From: Blautia sp.
GTDB lineage: Bacteria > Bacillota > Clostridia > Lachnospirales > Lachnospiraceae
Direction: 5' to 3'
DNA length: 44,971 bases
Assembly (NCBI GenBank): GCA_017475035.1
Contig: JAFVGK010000195.1
Location: forward strand, 1-44,971
The notes under the pieces were generated by a model. The model was not told the DNA's origin. It ran no database searches and was given only the letters and a program-made list of their open reading frames with translations. The first letter of the stretch is position 1. Every line of letters begins with the position of its first letter. Positions 498 through 44,804 of this stretch are shown piece by piece. Both the position numbers and the translations under genes were made by a program.

Positions 498-555
498 TCC
501 TCCCCCCTGACATAGTTTTGTACATTGACTCAATGTCTTCGGATGACGATTTTGT
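498..555 (-). repeat. Leader element copy 1 (remA)
   Basis: Minus-strand core CAAAATCGTCATCCGAAGAC, ATTGAGTCAATGTACAAAAC, then GGGGGGAGGAG as ribosome binding site. The 5' half is missing and an unrelated repeat (582-663) takes its place. Confidence 0.85.
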
Positions 556-581
556 CTGATATTTTTATGGCAAATGAATAA

Positions 582-663
582 AATGCCTGCATTTGGATTC
601 GTTTACAGCGCCGGATTTACGCCGCTGCAAGCGGCATGATTTCACAGTAAATCCGTGCGCATA
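582..663 (+). repeat. Interspersed repeat D, copy 1
   Basis: AATGCCTGCATT, GGATTC, then CGGATTTAC-GCCGCT with AGCGGC and GTAAATCCG as inverted arms. The second copy at 10608-10687 is in the opposite orientation. Confidence 0.75.
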
Positions 664-9220: not shown

Positions 9221-10438
9221 TTATTCCACTATATGCTGGGTAAGGCCGTTGATGAAAATCGGAGTCAGCTCTGCCTGAACCAGCGGGCGAGCATACGTCA
9301 GAAACTCCGGAAGCATATCCGTTCTGTCTTCGTTGATCCACTCCAGCGGCACTTTCTTTTCAAGATTTGCCACATTATTGATATCTACCAGCTCCGTTGT
9401 GCACTGATACGGATCATCAGACAACCGCTTCAGAGCCACCATCTTTGCAGTCTCGCCCTCAAAAGCAGCCTTGGCGGCAGCTCCCCCTACCTGGTAGGCC
9501 TCTGTAATATCCGTACGGCTGGTCAGATGTCCCGCACAGCGCTGAAGAATGGATAATTCCACCGCCCTCGTCTTAGTGGGCAGGTTTTTGGCAACCAGAT
9601 TCGACAGATACCGTGCTGTTCCGGTCAGATTGATATGTCCGAAAGCATCCACGCTGCGCGCATCATCGCTGAGTTCGCAGACAAAGCGCCCGTCCGGAAG
9701 CTTTACTCCTTCGCTGACAGCGATCACTACGCTGGTCTTTTCCTTCTGCATCCGTTCCACTTTGGCAAGGAAGCGATCCGTATGGAAGGGAATCTCCGGC
9801 AGACAGATCAGATCGACGCCTTCACAGTCCGCTCCCCTCGACAACGCAGCTGCGGCCGTCAGCCAGCCGGCATTACGGCCCATAATCTCCACGATGGTGA
9901 CATAGTTCGTCCCGTACACTGTGGCATCACGGATGATTTCCTTCATTACTACGCCGATGTATTTTGCCGCGGAACCATAACCCGGAGTATGATCGGTGAG
10001 CATCAGGTCATTGTCGATGGTTTTCGGCACACCCATGAAACGGATCGGGGAACCGATCTGCTGTCCATAACGGGACAGTTTGTTGATCGTATCCATACTG
10101 TCATTGCCGCCGATATAGAAAAACCAGCCAATGTCCAGTTTTTTCAGAATTTCAAATAATTTCTCATACGTCGCTTCATCTTCCTCAGGATTCGGAAGCT
10201 TATACCTGCAGCTGCCCAGGAAAGAAGAAGGAGTCCTTTTCAGCAGTTCAATCTCAATGAAAGATTTCAGGCGTTCCGAAAGATCACACACCTTCTCTTC
10301 CAACAAGCCCTGGATACCGTGCAGCATACCATACACATGCTCCGCCCCGCGGCTCTGACAAGCCTGAAAAACGCCGGCCAGGCTTGCGTTAATTACTGAC
10401 GTCGGACCTCCGCTCTGACCTACAATAGCATTTGCCAT
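9221..10438 (-). CDS. pfp: Pyrophosphate-dependent 6-phosphofructokinase
   Basis: A 405-residue phosphofructokinase. The N-terminus MANAIVGQSGGPTSVINAS binds the phosphoryl donor. Two residues decide the donor: Asp113 in GGND (ATP enzymes have Gly in GGDG) and Lys139 in PKTIDND (ATP enzymes have Gly in PGTIDND). Both are the pyrophosphate-enzyme state, so the expected reaction is fructose 6-phosphate + PPi to fructose 1,6-bisphosphate + Pi, reversible, in the cytoplasm. The MGRNAGWLTAAAAL motif is intact. The start follows AGGAGGAG, which is the 3' end of a conserved leader element. A hairpin terminator follows, so the gene is probably monocistronic. Confidence 0.9.
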   Translation of the reverse strand: MANAIVGQSGGPTSVINASLAGVFQACQSRGAEHVYGMLHGIQGLLEEKVCDLSERLKSFIEIELLKRTPSSFLGSCRYKLPNPEEDEATYEKLFEILKKLDIGWFFYIGGNDSMDTINKLSRYGQQIGSPIRFMGVPKTIDNDLMLTDHTPGYGSAAKYIGVVMKEIIRDATVYGTNYVTIVEIMGRNAGWLTAAAALSRGADCEGVDLICLPEIPFHTDRFLAKVERMQKEKTSVVIAVSEGVKLPDGRFVCELSDDARSVDAFGHINLTGTARYLSNLVAKNLPTKTRAVELSILQRCAGHLTSRTDITEAYQVGGAAAKAAFEGETAKMVALKRLSDDPYQCTTELVDINNVANLEKKVPLEWINEDRTDMLPEFLTYARPLVQAELTPIFINGLTQHIVE

Positions 10439-10445
10439 GATAATT

Positions 10446-10537
10446 TCTCCTCCTATAACGAAGTTTTGTACGTTGACTCAGTGTCTTCTGATGACGGCTT
10501 TGCCGCTTCGGCAGTCGGGCTGCCGAAGCGGCAAAAT
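10446..10537 (-). repeat. Leader element copy 2 (pfp), with an added perfect hairpin
   Basis: Minus-strand core GTCATCAGAAGACACTGAG, TCAACGTACAAAACTTCG, then AGGAGGAG. The 5' half is a perfect 16-bp hairpin (TTTGCCGCTTCGGCAG at 10499, its complement at 10520, 5-nt loop). Confidence 0.85.
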
Positions 10538-10607
10538 CAGCCTCATCTTAAAACCCGGTTTTATGGTGACTGAAATAACACCTTTTTCTGTCTGAAAAAC
10601 AATTATC

Positions 10608-10687
10608 ATGCGAACGGATTTACTGCAGAAAGATGCCGCTGACGCGGCATAAATCCGTCGCAGTAAAAGAATCAGAATGCAGGCATT
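10608..10687 (-). repeat. Interspersed repeat D, copy 2
   Basis: The reverse complement reads GAATGCCTGCATT, TTTTACTGCGACGGATTT, ATGCCGC and GCGGCAT arms, then CAGTAAATCCGT. It lies between pfp and the ABC exporter gene. Confidence 0.75.
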
Positions 10688-10728
10688 CTGTTCGTTAACT
10701 ATAACAGGATTCGTCCGTTTCTTTTGCT

Positions 10729-13584: not shown

Positions 13585-13690
13585 TCACCTCCTCCCAAAA
13601 CGAAGTTTTGTGCGTTGACTCAATGACCACGGATGACTATTTTGCAGCCGTGCCTGCAAAAAACACAGCCGTGGGCAAAAGATGTCTCCT
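13585..13690 (-). repeat. Leader element copy 3 (ABC exporter)
   Basis: A full copy: GGAGACATCTTTTG, CCACGG, spacer, GCAAAATAGTCAT, CCGTGG, TCATTGAGTCAACGC, ACAAAACTTCG, GGGAGGAGG. CCACGG pairs with CCGTGG. Confidence 0.88.
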
Positions 13691-13757
13691 CTTATTACGA
13701 AGTACTGCAGGTCGACTCAATGTTTTCCGGATGACGATTTTGCGTATCCCGGAAAAC
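13684..13757 (-). repeat. Leader element copy 4, in tandem before copy 3
   Basis: GTTTTCCGG, GATACGCAAAATCGTCAT, CCGGAAAAC, ATTGAGTCGACCTGC, AGTACTTCG, AGAGGAG. The 9-bp arms pair perfectly. It begins just after the stop of the acidic-protein gene. Confidence 0.88.
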
Positions 13758-13767
13758 CACCCGAGGG

Positions 13768-14956: not shown

Positions 14957-15080
14957 GAGCGCCCCTCTTTCAGTGTTTCTCACTTTAGCCACTTGCTCGA
15001 TCTTGCGAAGATGTATGACAGCCGGATTCAAAATTCTACTAAACCAAATATCACTCCTGCAATAAAAAACTGATGATTCA

Positions 15081-15119
15081 GGTGACCCTATCTCATGCAA
15101 AAATGAGCTGATTCCGAAT
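15081..15119 (-). repeat. Interspersed repeat B, copy with GGAATC and TCATTTTTGC core
   Basis: On the minus strand ATTCGGAATCAGCTCATTTT continues into GCATGAGATAGGGTC. The same segments recur near 1-24, 83-142 (head-to-head) and 26812. Confidence 0.55.
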
Positions 15120-16311: not shown

Positions 16312-16378
16312 CAGATTTCCCATTTCATTTATCATAGCATCAAAAAAAATGTTTCTGCAGACTTCTCCGCGGCGAAGC

Positions 16379-16492
16379 TTCTTTGACAATTATAATTCTT
16401 TGACAATTATAATTCATTGGCAATTATAATTCATTGGCAATTATAATTCATTGGCAATTATAATTCATTGGCAATTATAATTCATTGCCATT
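16379..16492. repeat. 17-bp tandem repeat, six copies plus one decayed
   Basis: Unit TTCATTGGCAATTATAA. Copies at 16413, 16430, 16447 and 16464 are identical; those at 16379 and 16396 read TTCTTTGACAATTATAA; a decayed seventh starts at 16481. Each unit contains the palindrome AATTATAATT across its junction and a TATAAT on both strands, beside TTGACA or TTGGCA on the plus strand. It lies between the HMA gene end and the VanY-like gene start. Confidence 0.93.
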
Positions 16493-16540
16493 TATCTTCC
16501 GCCGCGGTATATGCTGTACAGCAATAAAACGTCAAAACGT

Positions 16541-32550: not shown

Positions 32551-32635
32551 TTATTCGTATCATATAAAATATCTACGTTTTATCGCTTTTTCTGCAGGAG
32601 TTGTTTTGCTCCGGCGGTAAACGTGACCGGAAAGC

Positions 32636-32680
32636 TTTTCATTGAGTCAATCTGCAAAACTGCGTTTTGGGAGAAGGTAA
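32636..32680 (+). repeat. Leader element copy 7 (sugar-binding protein), 5' truncated
   Basis: CTTTTCATTGAGTCAATCTG, CAAAACTGCGTTTTGGGAGA. About 40 nt before the ribosome binding site rather than adjoining it. Confidence 0.7.
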
Positions 32681-35066: not shown

Positions 35067-35993
35067 ATGGCGTCAAAAAAGAAGAAAAAAGGATTCCTTA
35101 GCGAATATACCGGATCCCGGATGAGAAGAAATGAAGCCCGGAACGGATTTCTCTTCGTTCTTCCCTGGATCATCGGTTTTTTCGTTTTCACCCTGTATCC
35201 CATCATCAGCTCCGCATACTATTCTTTATGCAATTACAAAGTGGTGGGAAAGCCTAAGTTTATCGGCCTTGCAAATTATCAGAATCTGTTTCACGACCGT
35301 ATCTTTATACAGGCCTGTCAGAATACCGTCTATATGATCCTGATCGGAGTGCCGGTCACCACCTTTGTGGCGATCGCCGTTTCTATCATACTGAACAACA
35401 AAAAGCTGCGGGGAACAAGCTGGATGAGGGTTGTCTTCTTCATCCCGACCCTGGTTCCTACCGTCGTTGGCTGTCTTCTCTGGATCTGGGTCATGCAGCC
35501 GGAATCCGGGCTGGTGAATACTTTTTTAGGTTATCTGGGCATCAAGGGCCCCGGATGGCTTTCCAGTCCCACCTGGGCTAAACCCGCCTTTATCCTGATG
35601 ATGATCTGGACCTGCGGAAACGCCATAATTATTTATCTGGCAGGCCTGCAGGATATATCACCCACGCTCTATGACGCGGCGGAGGTAGACGGAGCAGGTT
35701 TTTTCCAGCAGGCCATCCACATCTCGGTTCCTTTGCTTCGTCCGACCATCCTTTACAATATGGTTACACTGATCATCGGAGTTTTCCAATGGTTTACCGA
35801 GCCTTACATCATGACAGAGGGCGGTCCCAGCAACGCAACCATGTTCTATTCCTTATACCTTTACAAGAATGCTTTCTCCTATTTTAAAATGGGATATGCT
35901 TCCGCACAGGCCTGGATCATGCTGCTGGTTGCCATGGTGATCATTATCATCATGTTTAAGCTGTTCCGGTTCGGTGAAACGGAAATGAGCTGA
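35067..35993 (+). CDS. Sugar ABC permease, MalF/UgpA type
   Basis: A 308-residue membrane protein with six predicted helices and the EAA loop LYDAAEVDGAGFFQQAIHIS followed by VPLLRP. It pairs with the upstream permease to form the membrane channel. The basic N-terminus (ASKKKKKGFL) is cytoplasmic. The start follows AAGGAGG. A leader-element copy separates it from the TIM-barrel gene, which lies 110 nt downstream on the same strand and without a clear terminator, so transport and catabolism are probably one operon. Confidence 0.93.
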   Translation: MASKKKKKGFLSEYTGSRMRRNEARNGFLFVLPWIIGFFVFTLYPIISSAYYSLCNYKVVGKPKFIGLANYQNLFHDRIFIQACQNTVYMILIGVPVTTFVAIAVSIILNNKKLRGTSWMRVVFFIPTLVPTVVGCLLWIWVMQPESGLVNTFLGYLGIKGPGWLSSPTWAKPAFILMMIWTCGNAIIIYLAGLQDISPTLYDAAEVDGAGFFQQAIHISVPLLRPTILYNMVTLIIGVFQWFTEPYIMTEGGPSNATMFYSLYLYKNAFSYFKMGYASAQAWIMLLVAMVIIIIMFKLFRFGETEMS

Positions 35994-36098
35994 CAGGAGA
36001 CGATTCTGTCTTCGGCATACAGCTGTCAAAGCAGCAAAATCGTTATCCGAAGACATTGGGTCGACATACAAAACTGTGTTCAGGGAGTAGTAGGAGGA
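35994..36098 (+). repeat. Leader element copy 5 (TIM-barrel gene)
   Basis: A full copy. GATTCTG (36002) pairs with CAAAATC (36035) and TCTTCGG (36009) pairs with CCGAAGA (36047), an interleaved order. It ends in AGGAGG, the ribosome binding site. Confidence 0.88.
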
Positions 36099-36103
36099 TA
36101 ACT

Positions 36104-36940
36104 ATGCGAATTGGTTTATCATCACCGTTGTCCCACGAGACGCCGGAGGAATGGGCTGCACAGATGAGCCGGCTGGGCTGCCGGAGCATTGTCTTTCCTG
36201 CAGATTATACACAGCCGGATCATATTATCTCCGATTATGTGGACGCGGCAAAAAAATACGATCTGCTGATCGCTGAGGTCGGCATCTGGAAAAATGTTTT
36301 TGCCCGGGATCCGGCGGAATGCGAAGAAGCGCGCCAGAGAGCCCTCGGACAGCTTCGGCTTGCGGATGAGATCGGCGCGAAATGCTGTGTCAATGTTGCC
36401 GGAACAAAAGGCGGGCCCATCTGGGACGGCGGCTATGCCATAAATTTTACCAGGGAAAGCTGGGATGACATTGTTGCCTATACCCGGGATCTGTTGGATA
36501 CGGTGCGTCCCAGACGTACAGAATACAGTGTGGAGCCCATGCCCTGGATGTACCCCACGGGTCCCGATGAATGTCTGAAGCTGCTGCAGGACGTAGACAG
36601 GCCGGGGTTCGGGATCCATCTGGATATCGTCAACATGGTCAACTGTCCGCAGCGGTATTTCTTCCTGGATGACTTTCTTGACGAATGCTTCGAAAAGCTG
36701 GACGGGAAAATCTGCAGCTGCCACCTGAAGGATATCCGCCTTACTCAGGAGCTGACCTTCCAGCTCGAAGAAACCTTCTGCGGGAACGGAATCCTGAACA
36801 TAGAAAAATATATGAAGCTGATTCATCAGCAGGATCCGGAAATGCCCGTGATCATCGAACATCTGACCACTGATGAAGAGTACCGCATGAGCCTGGCTTA
36901 TGTCCAGAAGCTTTTGGAGAAAGCAGGCATTCCTTTCTGA
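36104..36940 (+). CDS. Sugar phosphate isomerase/epimerase-like TIM-barrel protein
   Basis: A 278-residue xylose-isomerase-like TIM barrel (AP endonuclease 2 superfamily). The four metal ligands of the family are recognisable: Glu144 (SVEPM), Asp174 (HLDIVN), His207 (CHLKDIR) and Glu252 (IIEHL). Members isomerise or epimerise sugars, keto-inositols or dehydro-sugars, or dehydrate dehydroshikimate. The start follows AGGAGG at the end of a leader element. It sits between a sugar importer and two VOC genes, so it probably acts on the imported sugar or its oxidised form; the exact reaction is not known. Confidence 0.87.
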   Translation: MRIGLSSPLSHETPEEWAAQMSRLGCRSIVFPADYTQPDHIISDYVDAAKKYDLLIAEVGIWKNVFARDPAECEEARQRALGQLRLADEIGAKCCVNVAGTKGGPIWDGGYAINFTRESWDDIVAYTRDLLDTVRPRRTEYSVEPMPWMYPTGPDECLKLLQDVDRPGFGIHLDIVNMVNCPQRYFFLDDFLDECFEKLDGKICSCHLKDIRLTQELTFQLEETFCGNGILNIEKYMKLIHQQDPEMPVIIEHLTTDEEYRMSLAYVQKLLEKAGIPF

Positions 36941-36965
36941 AACCTGTCAGGAATTACGGGTACAC

Positions 36966-37075
36966 AATTTTGCCGAAGGAGCACAATCGTCATCCGATGA
37001 CATTGAGTCAATGTACAAAGCTTCATTATGGGAGATATATTTTGTCAACGGACAAAACTTCGTTATGAATTGGAG
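36966..37075 (+). repeat. Leader element copy 6 (first VOC gene), with partial second copy
   Basis: CAATCGTCATCCGATGACAT, TGAGTCAATGTACAAAGC, TTCATTATGGGAGA, then a shortened repeat (ATTTTGTCAACGGACAAAAC, TTCGTTATG) leading to TTGGAGG. GTCATC/GATGAC form a local hairpin. Confidence 0.8.
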
Positions 37076-37086
37076 GAAAAAACAGA

Positions 37087-37590
37087 ATGTCTTTAGGAAC
37101 AAAAAGGGTTGTCCATATTTCTTTTGTGGTAAGGGACATTAAAGCCGTGATGGCAGCCTGGAGAGAACTGCTTGGACTGGAAGCGGATCCCAGAATATGG
37201 AACATACCCGGACCGGAAACCGCCCCGACCTTTACAGAAGGGAATCCGGAGCTGTACCATGACTGCCTGATCAGCGTCATCGAATTGGATAATCTTGTTT
37301 TAGAGGTTGTTCAGCCGGGTCCGGAGCCCAGTCCGTGGAAAACGTTTCTGGAGAAGCACGGAGAGGGGTTGATGCATCTTGCCTTCCTTGTCCCGGATGA
37401 GGAAGAAGCTGTCCGGTCCATTGCTTCTGCAACAGGAAAAGAAAATTTTTATCACATCGGTTATTATCCGGAACAATATTATTCGTTCTATGATACATAC
37501 GAAACCTTAAAAACAGAGCTGAATATCAAAGTCAACAAAGATAACAGGGAACTGATCAGCAATGTTCTGAAAAGCCTGAATCAGAAATAA
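37087..37590 (+). CDS. VOC-family metalloenzyme (first of pair)
   Basis: A 167-residue vicinal-oxygen-chelate protein of the glyoxalase / methylmalonyl-CoA epimerase / dioxygenase superfamily. It shows two beta-alpha-beta-beta-beta modules with likely metal ligands His10 (VVHISFVV), Glu73 (LVLEVVQPG) and His97 (LMHLAFLV). The C-terminus contains a KTELNIKVN strand that could carry the fourth ligand. The start follows TTGGAGG. A leader element with a partial extra copy precedes it. It is co-directional with the TIM-barrel gene and the second VOC gene. Confidence 0.85.
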   Translation: MSLGTKRVVHISFVVRDIKAVMAAWRELLGLEADPRIWNIPGPETAPTFTEGNPELYHDCLISVIELDNLVLEVVQPGPEPSPWKTFLEKHGEGLMHLAFLVPDEEEAVRSIASATGKENFYHIGYYPEQYYSFYDTYETLKTELNIKVNKDNRELISNVLKSLNQK

Positions 37591-40901: not shown

Positions 40902-43256
40902 TCACTCTTCGAACCGGCCCACTTTTTTCCTGATTGCCATCAGATCAGGATTCTCAGCCCCGAAGCATTGCTCCATCTCTACCTCTATCTCCTGATACAT
41001 CTTCAGGGCTTCCGATCTTTCTCCCTGTGCGTATGCCAGATCAGCAAGGGCTTCCTTCGCCCAGAAGGTCTGTCGATTGAAGCCTCCGTTAAACAGGATA
41101 TTAAGACGGAGAGATTCCTCCAATGCTTCTTTCGCCTCCTCCATCTGCCCCAGGTGCATACAGCATTTTCCGATATCCGTAAGGGCACAGGCACTGTTTG
41201 GATTTTCGGCTCCGTCTCTCTTTATGTAGAATTCCTGGCTTTTTCTCGCATAGACAAGAGCGTTTTCATAATCTCCCATCGCCTGGAACATACGGTCCAT
41301 TTCAAGATGCGCATTGCCAAAGCATCCCAGAGAATCTGCTTTTTCACGGCTGATCCGGATGGATTCCTCGAAGCATTCCTTTGCTTTCACAAAATCCCCC
41401 TTCAGATACGCAATTCTTCCGATCTTCTGATATGCGTTGGAAAGGTCATTCCAAGCCGCGTATCCGCTGTCCTCTTTGATGGCGGCTTTTTGATATGCAA
41501 GTCCTTCCTCATAATAAGGTGCGGCTTTCCCGTCATCGCCGCTGTTGTGATAACACCCACCGAGAATCGTAGCGGCAATACCGATTTTTCTGCCGTCATC
41601 CGGGAAATTCTGTTTTGTATATTCCAGAAAACGACGGCCTGTTTTGATGGAAAGATCATAGCGGGCACAGATCCATGCATTATTTGCCAGATAACTGAAT
41701 TCCTCCCAGAGTTCGGGAATCGGATCAAAATAATTGTTTATAATGTAAGCATAATACGGCCACAGGCGAGCCCTGGTTTCTTTATCGCAAAGCCACAGGC
41801 TTCCGATTTCTCTCCACAGCCCGGCGATATATGTTTTTCCGTTTTCCACAGCAGGATGGAGAGTTTCCCGGATGACATCCGCAACAACCGGGTGCATGCT
41901 CAGAATATCCGTATCTTCATCCAGCATCAGCCAGCTGTGGGCGATCAGTTCATTCAGATCATCATAGGATTCCAGTTCACAGATATTATAAAAAAGCGTG
42001 ATATCCATACCGGTATACGGCACCATGGTCATATACCGCAAAAGCTCCTCCTGAACGAAAGAAAGATTGGCGGTTGTAAAAAGCCTTGAAATAAAATCAA
42101 AAGAAGACCCGCCCTTTTCCGTTCCTTCCCTGTGTACTTTTTCTTTAAGCCGGGTATTGACTCCGCTTTCTTTCAAAAGGCTCAGCATATCCTGCGGTTT
42201 GCGCCGGCTCGCCTTCATCTGACGGGCAAGCAGATCCACCGTGATCGTATGGGCGCCTACAAGCCGGATCATTTCATCAACAGCCGGCATTTCGTTATCC
42301 TTGAGCCCCTTTCCGTATGCGCTTAAAAACAGCTGCCTCACCATTTCAAATTCCGCAATCGGCCCGATTTTCAATGTCTCATAGTCCTCATGCTCATTCC
42401 GGGTGGTAACCAGAAGATGGCAGGGCATGTTGCAAAAATCCGCAAAAACCGGATCCTCATCAACATCATAGTTATCCAGAATCATAAGAACCCGGTCCGA
42501 AGAGATTTTCCGGAGAGCTTCCATTTTCCGCTTGAAATACATCTCCTGGCTCTCACTCTCGGTATCCTGCGGCGGAAGATTTTCAATAAGCAGATTATCC
42601 CCCGTGACAAGATCGAGAAGGCTCCCCTCATAGCCAAGGAAAATAACCGTATCATACCGATCGTGATACTGCTTCGCATAGGATTTTGCGATTTCCGATT
42701 TTCCGATACCACCCATTCCCTGCAAAAACAAAACGTCATGTTCCGGCAGCAGTCCCGCAATCTCTTCCAGTTCCTTTTCTCTGCCCAGAAACAACGGACG
42801 CGGCCAGACCATATGCTCTTTCAGCTTTAACTGGCGTTGATTCATATACACAGCGTCATGGTCGGATAAATTCAGGATTCTCGCCACCAGTTCGTCCACC
42901 TTTTTCTCAAGCGGCGGAGTGGATGCGTCCAGCCAGTGGCAGGGGCCAAGATGATACCGCAGTAGCGGCGGCAGCTCTGCGGTGTCCAGCTTAAACGGGA
43001 TAATATATTTGCAGGTATGCGTCGCCTCCACCAGCTCTTTCGGACATTCCGACGACTCGATATAATTTTCCCCGACAATGCTCAGACAGACATCAGCCCG
43101 GGCAAGACCATCCATAATCGCGGACGCCCAGTCTCCCCACTTAATGTCTCTCGGCGCAATCCAGCACCGGATCCCGGCTTCTTCCAGTCTGTGGCAGATA
43201 AGCTGCGCAATCGGTGCGTCTTTGGACGAATGAGAAATAAATACAAGATGTTCCAT
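40902..43256 (-). CDS. TIR-NB-ARC-TPR protein, bacterial NLR-like
   Basis: A 784-residue three-part protein. Residues 1-130 are a TIR domain (LVFISHSSKD, GIRCWIAPRDIKWGDW, ECPKELVEA); Glu74 is in the position of the catalytic NADase Glu of TIR enzymes. Residues about 155-450 are an NB-ARC/STAND ATPase with P-loop GMGGIGKS (180-187), Walker B LMILDNYD and MHP motif (LSMHPVV). The rest is a series of TPR-like helices (KAAPYYEEGLAYQKAA, KAKECFEESI, EAKEALEESL). The layout fits anti-phage TIR-STAND proteins, in which ligand binding at the TPRs triggers NAD depletion. The start at 43256 follows AAGAGG. Confidence 0.88.
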   Translation of the reverse strand: MEHLVFISHSSKDAPIAQLICHRLEEAGIRCWIAPRDIKWGDWASAIMDGLARADVCLSIVGENYIESSECPKELVEATHTCKYIIPFKLDTAELPPLLRYHLGPCHWLDASTPPLEKKVDELVARILNLSDHDAVYMNQRQLKLKEHMVWPRPLFLGREKELEEIAGLLPEHDVLFLQGMGGIGKSEIAKSYAKQYHDRYDTVIFLGYEGSLLDLVTGDNLLIENLPPQDTESESQEMYFKRKMEALRKISSDRVLMILDNYDVDEDPVFADFCNMPCHLLVTTRNEHEDYETLKIGPIAEFEMVRQLFLSAYGKGLKDNEMPAVDEMIRLVGAHTITVDLLARQMKASRRKPQDMLSLLKESGVNTRLKEKVHREGTEKGGSSFDFISRLFTTANLSFVQEELLRYMTMVPYTGMDITLFYNICELESYDDLNELIAHSWLMLDEDTDILSMHPVVADVIRETLHPAVENGKTYIAGLWREIGSLWLCDKETRARLWPYYAYIINNYFDPIPELWEEFSYLANNAWICARYDLSIKTGRRFLEYTKQNFPDDGRKIGIAATILGGCYHNSGDDGKAAPYYEEGLAYQKAAIKEDSGYAAWNDLSNAYQKIGRIAYLKGDFVKAKECFEESIRISREKADSLGCFGNAHLEMDRMFQAMGDYENALVYARKSQEFYIKRDGAENPNSACALTDIGKCCMHLGQMEEAKEALEESLRLNILFNGGFNRQTFWAKEALADLAYAQGERSEALKMYQEIEVEMEQCFGAENPDLMAIRKKVGRFEE

Positions 43257-43272
43257 GATCGTACCTCTTTTC

Positions 43273-43425
43273 ACTGTATCAGATACACGGCTGCTGCCGG
43301 AATTTTCTGTTGTCACCGTTTCAGATATCCCGCTGCTGCCGGGAATTTTCTGTTGTCACCGTTTCAGATATCCCGCTGCTGCCGAGAATTTTCTGTTGTC
43401 ACCGTTTCAGATATCCCGCTGATAC
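43273..43425. repeat. 43-bp tandem repeat between the vanX-like and TIR genes
   Basis: Three near-identical 43-bp units (AATTTTCTGTTGTCACCGTT starts at 43301, 43344 and 43387) and degenerate ends. On the minus strand each unit contains CAGCGGGATATCTGAAACGG then TGACAACAGAAAATTC. The first unit is the coding end and stop codon of the vanX-like gene, so the array has arisen by duplication of that gene's 3' end. Confidence 0.9.
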
Positions 43426-44103
43426 AGGGAATTCAAAATACGTATCCGGGTATGGTTCATTCTTCAGGGAAAAATGCCACCATTCGCAGTCAATCGGCTG
43501 AAAACCATTGCGGAGCATAGCCTGACGGAGAATCATACGGTTCTCATATTGCTCTTCGGTTATGCCTTGATAATCCGGATGGGACACCTCACTGAACAGA
43601 TCAAAGGGACTTCCCATATCCAGTTCTTTCCCCGTCTTCATATCCAGAAGCGTCAGATCTATCGCGCTTCCCCGGCTGTGACTGGACTGCTTTGCAATAT
43701 ATCCTCTGGCAAACAGCTCCTGCTTTACCAGATCCGGATAGAAATACGGCTTCATGCGTACATCCTGGTCTTCAATCCCCCACAAAACAAAATGCCTGAC
43801 CGCGCAGGCCGGACGGTAGGCGTCAAACACCTTCAGCCGGTAGCCCTGCACGATCAGTTCACTGCTGGCTGATTTTAAGGCTCTCGCCGCTTCCTTCGTC
43901 AAAAGAGCACATGGTTCCTCGTACCCGTCGATCCGTTCTCCTATAAAATTGTAAGTAGAATAATAACGGATTTCCTGTACAATATTCGGGACAAATTCCC
44001 CCAACAGTACAAATCCCGACGGATCCATCGTTTCGTTTGTATAATCTGCTCTCATTTGTTTCCCAGCCTTTTCTCCCTCTGCAATGATGCCTGTAAACGA
44101 CAT
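43399..44103 (-). CDS. VanX-like D-Ala-D-Ala dipeptidase (M15D)
   Basis: A 234-residue cytoplasmic peptidase. The M15D zinc site is clear: KVFDAYRPACAVRHF, SSHSRGSAIDLTL (His and Asp ligands) and DCEWWHF (catalytic Glu and His). VanX-type enzymes hydrolyse D-Ala-D-Ala, either in vancomycin resistance or for D-Ala use as a nutrient; no vanHA or VanRS partners are here. The start is uncertain: 44103 has AAAGGGAC before it; the Met at 44055 (MRADYTNE) also gives a complete family domain. The C-terminal codons are duplicated in the adjacent 43-bp array. Confidence 0.85.
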   Translation of the reverse strand: MSFTGIIAEGEKAGKQMRADYTNETMDPSGFVLLGEFVPNIVQEIRYYSTYNFIGERIDGYEEPCALLTKEAARALKSASSELIVQGYRLKVFDAYRPACAVRHFVLWGIEDQDVRMKPYFYPDLVKQELFARGYIAKQSSHSRGSAIDLTLLDMKTGKELDMGSPFDLFSEVSHPDYQGITEEQYENRMILRQAMLRNGFQPIDCEWWHFSLKNEPYPDTYFEFPVSAGYLKR

Positions 44104-44167
44104 ACCGTCCCTTTGAAGATTTTGCTGCCTGTCTCGCTTCGCACTCCGGGACAGAATATGTCCCCCC
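44104..44167 (-). repeat. Leader element copy 9 (vanX-like gene)
   Basis: GGGGGGACATATTCTGTCCC, GGAGTGCG, AGACAGGCAGCAAAATC, TTCAAAGGGAC. GTCCC (44152-44148) pairs with GGGAC (44111-44107), which is part of the likely ribosome binding site. Confidence 0.75.
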
Positions 44168-44216
44168 ATGACACGATGCTTAGTACGTTGCCACAGTATC
44201 TTCGGCTGACAATTTT
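44160..44216 (-). repeat. Leader element copy 8, in tandem before copy 9
   Basis: ATAAAATTGTCAGCCGAAGA, TACTGTGGCAACGTACTAAG, CATCGTGTCATGGGGGGAC. A more diverged copy starting at the lipoprotein gene stop. Confidence 0.65.
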
Positions 44217-44643
44217 ATTCTGCAGGTTTCACTTCAACCTGGACGGTACCGGTCGCTTTCTCGATACAAGTAGCCCTTAGCATATAATTGCCCGCATTTA
44301 CCGTATGAGAAACCTTATCCGTACTCCTGGTATTTGCCGTGATGATCGCTTCTTTATTATTAAAATCAGGAAGAACATCAATACTCTGTTCTTCTTCCAC
44401 TTCGATGATTTCAACCTTGACGGAACCCTTAGACAGATTGGAAGTGATCTCGATCATTTCACCGTCATCAACCTCAAGGGAACCAAGCATAAAGAAATCT
44501 CCCTTATCCGCTCTCTCAGCCTTGATCGACATCAGCTTTCCCGTATTATCGGTAACTCCGAATTCAGATTTACCGCATGATGAAAGTGTAAGCATCGAAA
44601 CCGCAAGCAAGAAAACAACAGCTGCTTTGATGAATCGTTTCAT
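44215..44643 (-). CDS. Small surface lipoprotein, unknown function
   Basis: A 142-residue lipoprotein. It begins MKRFIKAAVVFLLAVSMLTL, with lipobox LSSC, and continues with a beta-rich domain (GEMIEITSNLSKGSVKVEII, TANTRSTDKVSHTVNAGNYM). I do not recognise the family. The start at 44643 follows GGAGGAGG; a leader element lies upstream. It precedes the vanX-like gene by about 110 nt containing two more leader-element copies, so the lipoprotein, dipeptidase and TIR genes may form one unit. Confidence 0.8.
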   Translation of the reverse strand: MKRFIKAAVVFLLAVSMLTLSSCGKSEFGVTDNTGKLMSIKAERADKGDFFMLGSLEVDDGEMIEITSNLSKGSVKVEIIEVEEEQSIDVLPDFNNKEAIITANTRSTDKVSHTVNAGNYMLRATCIEKATGTVQVEVKPAE

Positions 44644-44650
44644 AGATGAA

Positions 44651-44751
44651 CCTCCTCCAGACAATGATAATTGTAAACCAACATACTCTCCGGATGATTA
44701 TTTTGCTGCCTGTCACTTTTCACGCTCCAGGACAAAATATGTCTCCTCATT
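44651..44751 (-). repeat. Leader element copy 10 (lipoprotein gene)
   Basis: GAGGAGACATATTTTGTCC, TGGAGCGTG, GACAGGCAGCAAAATAATC, ATCCGGAGAGTATG, then GGAGGAGG. TATTTTG pairs with CAAAATA. Confidence 0.78.
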
Positions 44752-44804
44752 TATACTCGTTAATCGCGAATTGCTGTTAAACTAACGGATCAGCTCTAAC
44801 ATCT

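Follow-up and report, generated by a model that had tools for sequence, protein, structure and literature searches.

A short palindromic, probably mobile element ending in a Shine–Dalgarno sequence is found at many gene starts in a Blautia genome

INTRODUCTION

In-frame palindromic elements in proteins of Rickettsia were described in 2000. Rickettsia palindromic elements (RPEs) are about 100–150 bp long, form a stable hairpin and occur in several copies, and in the available parts of two papers they are placed both between genes and in frame in unrelated protein genes (PMC2229807, PMC10969869). Palindrome-associated transposable elements (PATEs) are described, in the sections of the report available, as free of a transposase and of terminal inverted repeats, with a palindrome close to each end and a conserved terminal oligonucleotide that is taken as the target (PMC3119063). 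For the ends of the IS200/IS605 group and for PATEs, the available text has a short target beside the hairpin foot that is read by base interactions (PMC6006769, PMC3119063). REP sequences, associated with the RAYT transposase (TnpA-REP), have a tetranucleotide at the hairpin foot and reach high copy numbers, and guide-type pairing is described for IS200/IS605, again according to the parts available (PMC6006769, PMC3733652). ERIC, Correia/NEMIS and RUP are small mobile repeats with RNA hairpins and, in the portion available of a 2007 review, one size class of the Neisseria repeats is intragenic and the other almost never so; the same portion treats the way in which such small palindromic elements move as an open question (PMC2229807).

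Here, we describe a family of elements that are very probably copies of a mobile palindromic element. We put the probability at roughly 0.65 that this element is mobile, palindromic and non-autonomous, that its insertion is directed to Shine–Dalgarno sequences (SDs) and that it rebuilds the SD on insertion, where we infer the choice of target from the ends of the element and their flanks.

COPIES IN THE WINDOW

The window, i.e. the whole stretch of DNA analysed, is 44,971 nt long. The initial annotation listed ten places in it that share a core sequence, and this sharing is real and far beyond chance, as the 20-mer ATTGAGTCAACGTACAAAAC has 7 near matches (≤3 mismatches) against 0 expected. GCAAAATCGTCATCC has 11 matches in the window at ≤3 mismatches against 2.1 expected, some of them inside ORFs away from the family. 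All ten places were recovered, eight with a covariance model (R1, built after aligning 33 copies), 13684 by an exact core match and 44104 through its repeat similarity to the 44651 copy. Three of the eight (10445, 13587 and 35989) are members of the model's own alignment, and the weakest of the eight scored 29.5 bits.

Seven copies are on the minus strand. The copy at 498..597 (R1 score 47.7 bits) precedes a remA (DUF370-like) gene, with the start codon 13 nt downstream; its 3′ half is conserved and its 5′ hairpin has diverged. A type B copy (types are defined below) at 10445..10552 (102.1 bits, in the model's alignment; fold z −6.2) is followed 7 nt downstream by the ATG of a phosphofructokinase gene, and a type A copy at 13587..13696 (107.7 bits, also in the alignment) is 18 nt from the start of an ABC transporter gene. 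Just upstream of the latter, the tandem copy at 13684..13765 (repeat D4) matches the core exactly, with zero mismatches, and has no separate R1 match. The type C copy at 44095..44169, before a dipeptidase-like gene (called start 44103), shares a 75-nt repeat (D10) with the 44651 copy at 76 % identity, and a diverged element at 44160..44264 (29.5 bits) is the upstream member of a tandem pair. The type C copy at 44650..44753 (42.2 bits) precedes a lipoprotein gene with its ATG 7 nt downstream. On the plus strand, 32627..32678 (33.1 bits) is the 3′ half of an element from which hairpin 1 is missing, a type B copy at 35989..36092 (81.8 bits, in the model's alignment) precedes a sugar isomerase-like gene (ATG 36104), and behind the element at 36951..37039 (50.9 bits) there is a second tail-like match (37039-37058), after which comes a gene at 37087.

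All ten copies point to the next gene, as the annotation stated. Its further statement that the 3′ end is the ribosome binding site in most copies stands in part. The start codon is 7, 7, 12, 13 and 18 nt after five copies, but the genes behind the 32636 and 36966 copies start 52 and 48 nt on, each with an SD of its own, and in the tandem pairs a further copy separates the upstream member from the gene.

Phosphofructokinases 87–92 % identical to the one encoded at 9224-10438 occur in several Clostridia MAGs, most of ruminant origin (RUG, RGIG), and there the gene has no element before it. Long palindromes of a second repeat family (CGGATTTACTG...GCGGC...AGTAAATCCG, about 80 % alike) are located at 565-662 and 10608-10704, just upstream of two elements (I1, I9). 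A 17-nt tandem repeat (TTCATTGGCAATTATAA and variants) is found between two genes at 16362-16514 (D2), and a 42–43-nt tandem repeat at 43258-43433 (D8) lies immediately before the gene at 40902-43256; the product of this gene starts, by eye, like a TIR-domain NTPase. A Clostridiales-1 RNA (RF01699, 49.1 bits) is at the window edge, at 1-148 on the minus strand, and part of it recurs at 15073-15109 (I6, D19). In a search of the whole window against Rfam 15 at gathering scores this was the sole match, and no family was found for the element, in line with the annotation, which knew of none; at relaxed scores, nothing above chance level was found in 35980-37090.

STRUCTURE OF THE ELEMENT

The element is 90–101 nt long and, from 5′ to 3′, consists of (R)GGAGAC, a long hairpin (hairpin 1), GTCATCC, a linker with CATTGAGTCA, a short hairpin (hairpin 2, e.g. 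CAAAAC-TTC-GTTTTG) and the terminal GGGAGGAG. The first GGAGAC pairs with GTCATCC to form the base of hairpin 1, and this basal stem differs between species (GGAGAC/GTCATCC or GGAGCC/GGCATCC). Three types of long hairpin are distinguished, labelled here A (with TTTTGCCCACGGCTGC..), B (with GATTTTGTCTTCGGCAG..) and C (with TTTTGTCCTGGAGCGCGAAGCGC..). As the long hairpin is confined to the 5′ part and a small separate hairpin occupies the 3′ end, no stem joins the two ends of the element. The ends read AC(T/A).. and ..GGGAGGAG, and terminal inverted repeats and TA ends were absent on inspection. GGAG at the 5′ boundary is conserved at 82–88 % per base in 76 copies, and the same GGAG also pairs within hairpin 1.

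Among 115 distinct rows from five genomes, in an alignment that was fitted to the structure and contains related, hence not independent, copies, 21 of the 23 pairs of hairpin 1 show two-sided changes that keep the pair. Cells with such changes numbered 235, against 75 in shuffles and at most 56 when the arms were slid. When six copies were folded singly, no shuffle folded as well as four of them, 2/200 shuffles did so for one, and one (type C) was no better than its shuffles. Hairpins are present near both ends, and hairpin 2 is weaker than the covarying hairpin 1. Over 35 copies, its best stem has a mean of 5.3 (shuffles, 3.7) with a wide variety of stem sequences, which supports hairpin 2 as a group, 12/35 copies being individually beyond shuffles at 0.05.

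Two further readings of the sequence were set aside. One is a switch in which the 5′ arm of hairpin 1 would pair instead with CCGAAGACA/CCGTGGTCA; it was attractive on 33 copies and is not relied on after 115 rows. In these rows it was above shuffles in cells (60 vs 31.5), in the percentage paired and in covariation score, but pairs (6 vs 6.5) and pair types (17 vs 18.5) showed no excess, and the signal may be due just to two subtypes. A sigma-70 promoter (TTGAGT, 17 nt, TTATAG) was dropped by reasoning, as its start would fall after the SD.

COPY NUMBER, ORIENTATION AND POSITION

In the genome to which the window belongs (G000; 5.08 Mb, 200 contigs), a 32-base pattern gave 141 matches at ≤3 mismatches and its reversed control 0. 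Model R1 was then applied to 40 stretches, taken tile by tile from ten contigs, and the window. Within these 821,971 bases, which were not chosen by orientation, 126 matches reached an E-value of ≤0.01, and of these 107 scored ≥30 bits and 87 scored ≥50 bits (strong copies). Extrapolated by density, which is perhaps somewhat high as the contigs were known to hold copies, this amounts to about 540–660 copies per genome, and in the stretches examined to about one per six to eight genes.

Genes were called with a dicodon script (683 genes). The next gene is on the same strand for 113 of all 126 matches and on the opposite strand for 12, the remaining one being at an edge; several weak opposite-strand matches are the palindrome of a sense copy read on the other strand. 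The uniform sense orientation that had been claimed is therefore nearly, but not wholly, upheld across the genome, with 82/87 strong copies facing a same-strand gene, five that do not and one copy that is antisense within a gene. A start codon is 3–16 nt after the element in 57/87 strong copies, against 2.9 expected from random intergenic placement, and 11/87 are inside called genes. Replication direction is not the cause of the orientation, because even where copies lie on the locally rarer gene strand, 19/20 are sense.

A similar arrangement is seen in eight other species of the genus, where a frame of ≥88 codons starts within 14 nt of the element in 25/30 and 10/11 loci (41 mostly best-scoring loci). 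This count is weaker than that for G000, as only the downstream side and the element's own strand were covered and starts were picked by frame length.

Among the 76 best aligned rows, mostly from G000 with some from other species, no pair is ≥95 % identical (maximum 93 %, median 65 %), which indicates that the spread was not recent or that the family is now still. Recent movement is thus unproven, with no sign of it among the pairs compared (≤93 % identity).

COPIES INSIDE GENES

Ten of the 11 strong copies in called genes are sense; the antisense copy (L132:6365) is within a 360-residue frame of no Pfam family. Six sense copies are internal, namely one in an ABC permease, one in a HelD-like helicase, two model matches in a CobB-like protein and two, in two different frames, in an HGD-D/BcrAD protein. 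The other four lengthen the C-terminus of a gene into the start of the next gene. A DUF2264 gene and the gene for a small exported-looking protein each contain a weaker sense copy. In-gene copies usually add about 31 residues, the usual peptide being close to ETDFVFGSPTAEAAKSSSEDIESTYKTSLWEE, and the exact insert is ambiguous (90, 93 or 96 nt), as GGAG is repeated at both ends. This short palindromic element is therefore found both in frame in genes and between genes. At L143:18480-18790, three tandem element units form a 30-residue peptide repeat in the linker of the CobB-like protein.

Orthologues of two of these proteins lack the added residues, though they are distant, so that their gaps are not a clean nucleotide-level empty site. 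For HelD, similarity searches break at the element site in many genomes, and a 31-residue gap is present at the element in the four aligned loci of 13 fetched (the other nine were missed by the motif filter and are unaligned). Five of 15 orthologue loci were compared for the HGD-D/BcrAD protein. A gap at the second copy was found in L300, L301, L302 and L307; at the first copy it was found in L301 and L302, partly in L300 and not in L307, and L308 gave no clear result. This comparison falls in a poorly conserved linker.

All 11 in-gene copies were classed as type B by script and have an open sense frame, while none of the 24 type A copies is in a gene. Such a pattern could arise from random insertion followed by purifying selection, where only those copies survive that supply an SD or an open frame. 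We regard this as unlikely. The antisense frame of type B is open in 47/49 copies, and yet 10 of the 11 in-gene copies are sense. Convergent gaps, where an insertion should do least harm, hold 2/87 copies (script classes), and only 3.3 % of random intergenic placements put the end of the element at the SD distance. An excess of GGAG on the sense strand of coding sequence (2.6-fold over the antisense strand, and fivefold for GAGGAG) goes some way to explain the sense insertions in genes.

PROPOSED INSERTION SITE AND MECHANISM

Flanks were compared for the 68 of 87 strong copies that have clean ends, after 19 had been dropped. Among the 58 of these that are intergenic, 76 % have A at position −5, compared with 61 % of 285 SDs that lack a copy. 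Two features do not fit insertion at an SD: the last GGAG is followed by G in 20/58 copies but in 170/285 ordinary SDs, and T is more frequent at positions −10 to −14 next to copies than in ordinary SDs. By eye, when the stretch between the two GGAGs is removed from L130, L135 and L140, these read as a stop codon, a good SD and an ATG at normal spacing, and the HelD site minus the element is a GGAG-rich run of codons. At tandem junctions, one GGAG is common to the neighbours (by eye). GGAG on both sides of the element could be read as a target site duplication; as the 5′ GGAG is also in the hairpin stem, target and element are inseparable in these data. Together, the 5′ GGAG, the 3′ GGAGGAG and flanks that are partly like those of ordinary SDs suggest that the element enters just after GGAG.

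We propose that the element inserts 3′ of a GGAG, most often an SD, on the strand that carries it, perhaps recognizing this target by pairing with its own TCATCC. Because the element itself ends in GGAGGAG, insertion would rebuild the ribosome binding site without changing its spacing to the start codon, and expression of the gene would continue. A rebuilt GGAG could be hit again, which would generate tandem arrays of mixed types. A stronger version, which we favour though we hold it less firmly than the outline above, is that the SD itself is the target and the end of the element is an SD, such that each insertion swaps the ribosome binding site of a gene for an equivalent one, giving 540–660 copies mostly at gene starts, and peptides are added where the GGAG is coding. 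The layout with two hairpins would suit a single-strand (HUH-type) transposase provided in trans, and we suggest such an enzyme as the mobilizer only tentatively.

DISTRIBUTION AND SEARCH FOR A MOBILIZING ENZYME

With a broader model (R2) and 61 candidates scored per genome, copies were found in 9/64 genomes of the genus, including G000, and at that sensitivity none was found in the other 55. G000 has at least 61 copies, and the other carriers have 44 (G062), 36 (G072), 14 (G081), 12 (G032), 7 (G074), 2 (G002), 1 (G018) and 1 (G014). An order-level search of limited sensitivity (26 candidates per genome, strict filters) found a copy in 0/145 other genomes. Plasmids and phages gave no blastn match to one type A consensus, and the viral_contigs and genome_contigs collections no exact match to one short pattern each. 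In two species (L110 in G081 and L118 in G032), an element is before a gltB-like gene, identified by eye; a shared old insertion or a hot spot is possible.

The position and sense orientation of the copies, the covarying pairing, the fold that diverged copies still keep and the element before the gltB-like gene in two species would all suit a functional RNA leader, with the hairpin as a cis-regulatory or mRNA-stabilizing 5′ UTR that has spread to many genes and is kept by selection. This too is improbable, and slightly more so than random insertion with selection. If fold and SD were kept for initiation, in-gene copies, which have no initiation role, should tend to lose both, and this loss is not seen. 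The paired fraction is 0.870 in genes (n=11), 0.883 at the SD distance (n=53) and 0.885 in the others (n=23), with a rank test P of 0.63 for the first two, though with 11 in-gene copies a modest difference could escape. AGGAG or GGAGG is present at the 3′ end of 9/11, 48/53 and 18/23 copies, respectively. Moreover, there is no Rfam family, the yicC-remA gap is short and without an element in 28 relatives (by eye), no model match was found upstream of phosphofructokinase genes at the 35 loci searched of 80, a few of which have little upstream DNA, and the switch-like pairing exceeds shuffles in cells but in neither pairs nor pair types, the pattern expected from two subtypes by themselves. The initial annotation had offered two readings, a 5′ UTR function or a mobile unit that brings its own ribosome binding site along. 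The in-gene copies, the orthologues of two genes without them, the patchy carriage and the SD-like end kept in genes favour the mobile unit, and the absence of an Rfam match and of elements at remA and phosphofructokinase genes of relatives, and the equal pairing in leaders and genes, speak against the regulatory function.

Carriage did not link the element to an enzyme. A Y1 transposase (PF01797) was rejected as the mobilizer, being present in 6/9 carriers and 34/55 non-carriers; among these incomplete draft genomes, it was not found in G062, despite its 44 copies, or in G018 and G014, and G000 has just a fragment at a contig end. Y1 proteins of RAYT length were found in only three of the nine carriers (G002, G032 and G081). 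Reverse transcriptase (PF00078) likewise showed no association (5/9 carriers, 31/55 others). Insertion at the RNA level, group II-like or mediated by a reverse transcriptase, into transcripts would give sense-only copies in leaders and genes alike, and G000 has 7 RVT_1 matches, but it is very improbable, given that RVT_1 does not track carriage and was not found in the draft genomes of the carriers G072, G074, G032 and G018, and that one in-gene copy is antisense.

COMPARISON WITH KNOWN SYSTEMS

If the proposal is correct, it shows how translation starts across a genome can absorb insertions by the hundred at little cost; one hairpin then precedes a large number of unrelated genes and may affect the stability and translation of their mRNAs. 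The near-fixed orientation, the likely four-base target and the rebuilt SD amount to a concrete and testable rule, in a phylum other than that of Rickettsia. No repeat that targets or carries an SD was met in the literature at the level of titles and the starts of abstracts, in short result lists with most subscription papers outside the coverage.

ERIC, Correia/NEMIS and RUP, which are MITE-like, typically have terminal inverted repeats, TA ends and target duplications, as far as the available description goes; here, inverted repeats and TA ends, which mark a DDE-type MITE, were not seen. The Neisseria size classes, one intragenic and the other nearly never so in that partial account, nevertheless parallel types B and A. 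REP sequences share with the element a tetranucleotide at the hairpin foot and a high copy number. However, in the parts of the REP papers available, the tags are GTAG/GTGG or CGTC and most REPs are downstream of genes, whereas this element has GGAG and two hairpins and is upstream, and no RAYT-length Y1 protein is present in the three highest-copy carriers.

The closest likenesses are to RPEs and PATEs. Like RPEs, the element is short, forms a hairpin and is found between genes and in frame in unrelated genes. It differs from them in phylum and in being mostly at start codons, in the sense direction and with a built-in SD; no link to an SD appears in the available parts of the RPE literature (PMC2229807, PMC10969869). 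In addition, according to these partial descriptions, by which alone RPEs were compared, the RPE stem is formed by the two ends of the element (a terminal inverted repeat), and here the long hairpin joins no ends. The layout resembles IS200/IS605 ends and PATEs as described in the available text, and with PATEs, which have IS605-type ends, it shares the lack of a transposase and of terminal inverted repeats, hairpins toward both ends and a conserved end oligonucleotide. In contrast to PATEs, to the extent that they are covered there, no IS605-type parent was found in the carriers, the likely target resembles an SD and there are more copies per genome. Because a defining feature of each group was looked for and not found, the element is filed as neither an RPE nor a PATE; it works like both and is a member of neither.
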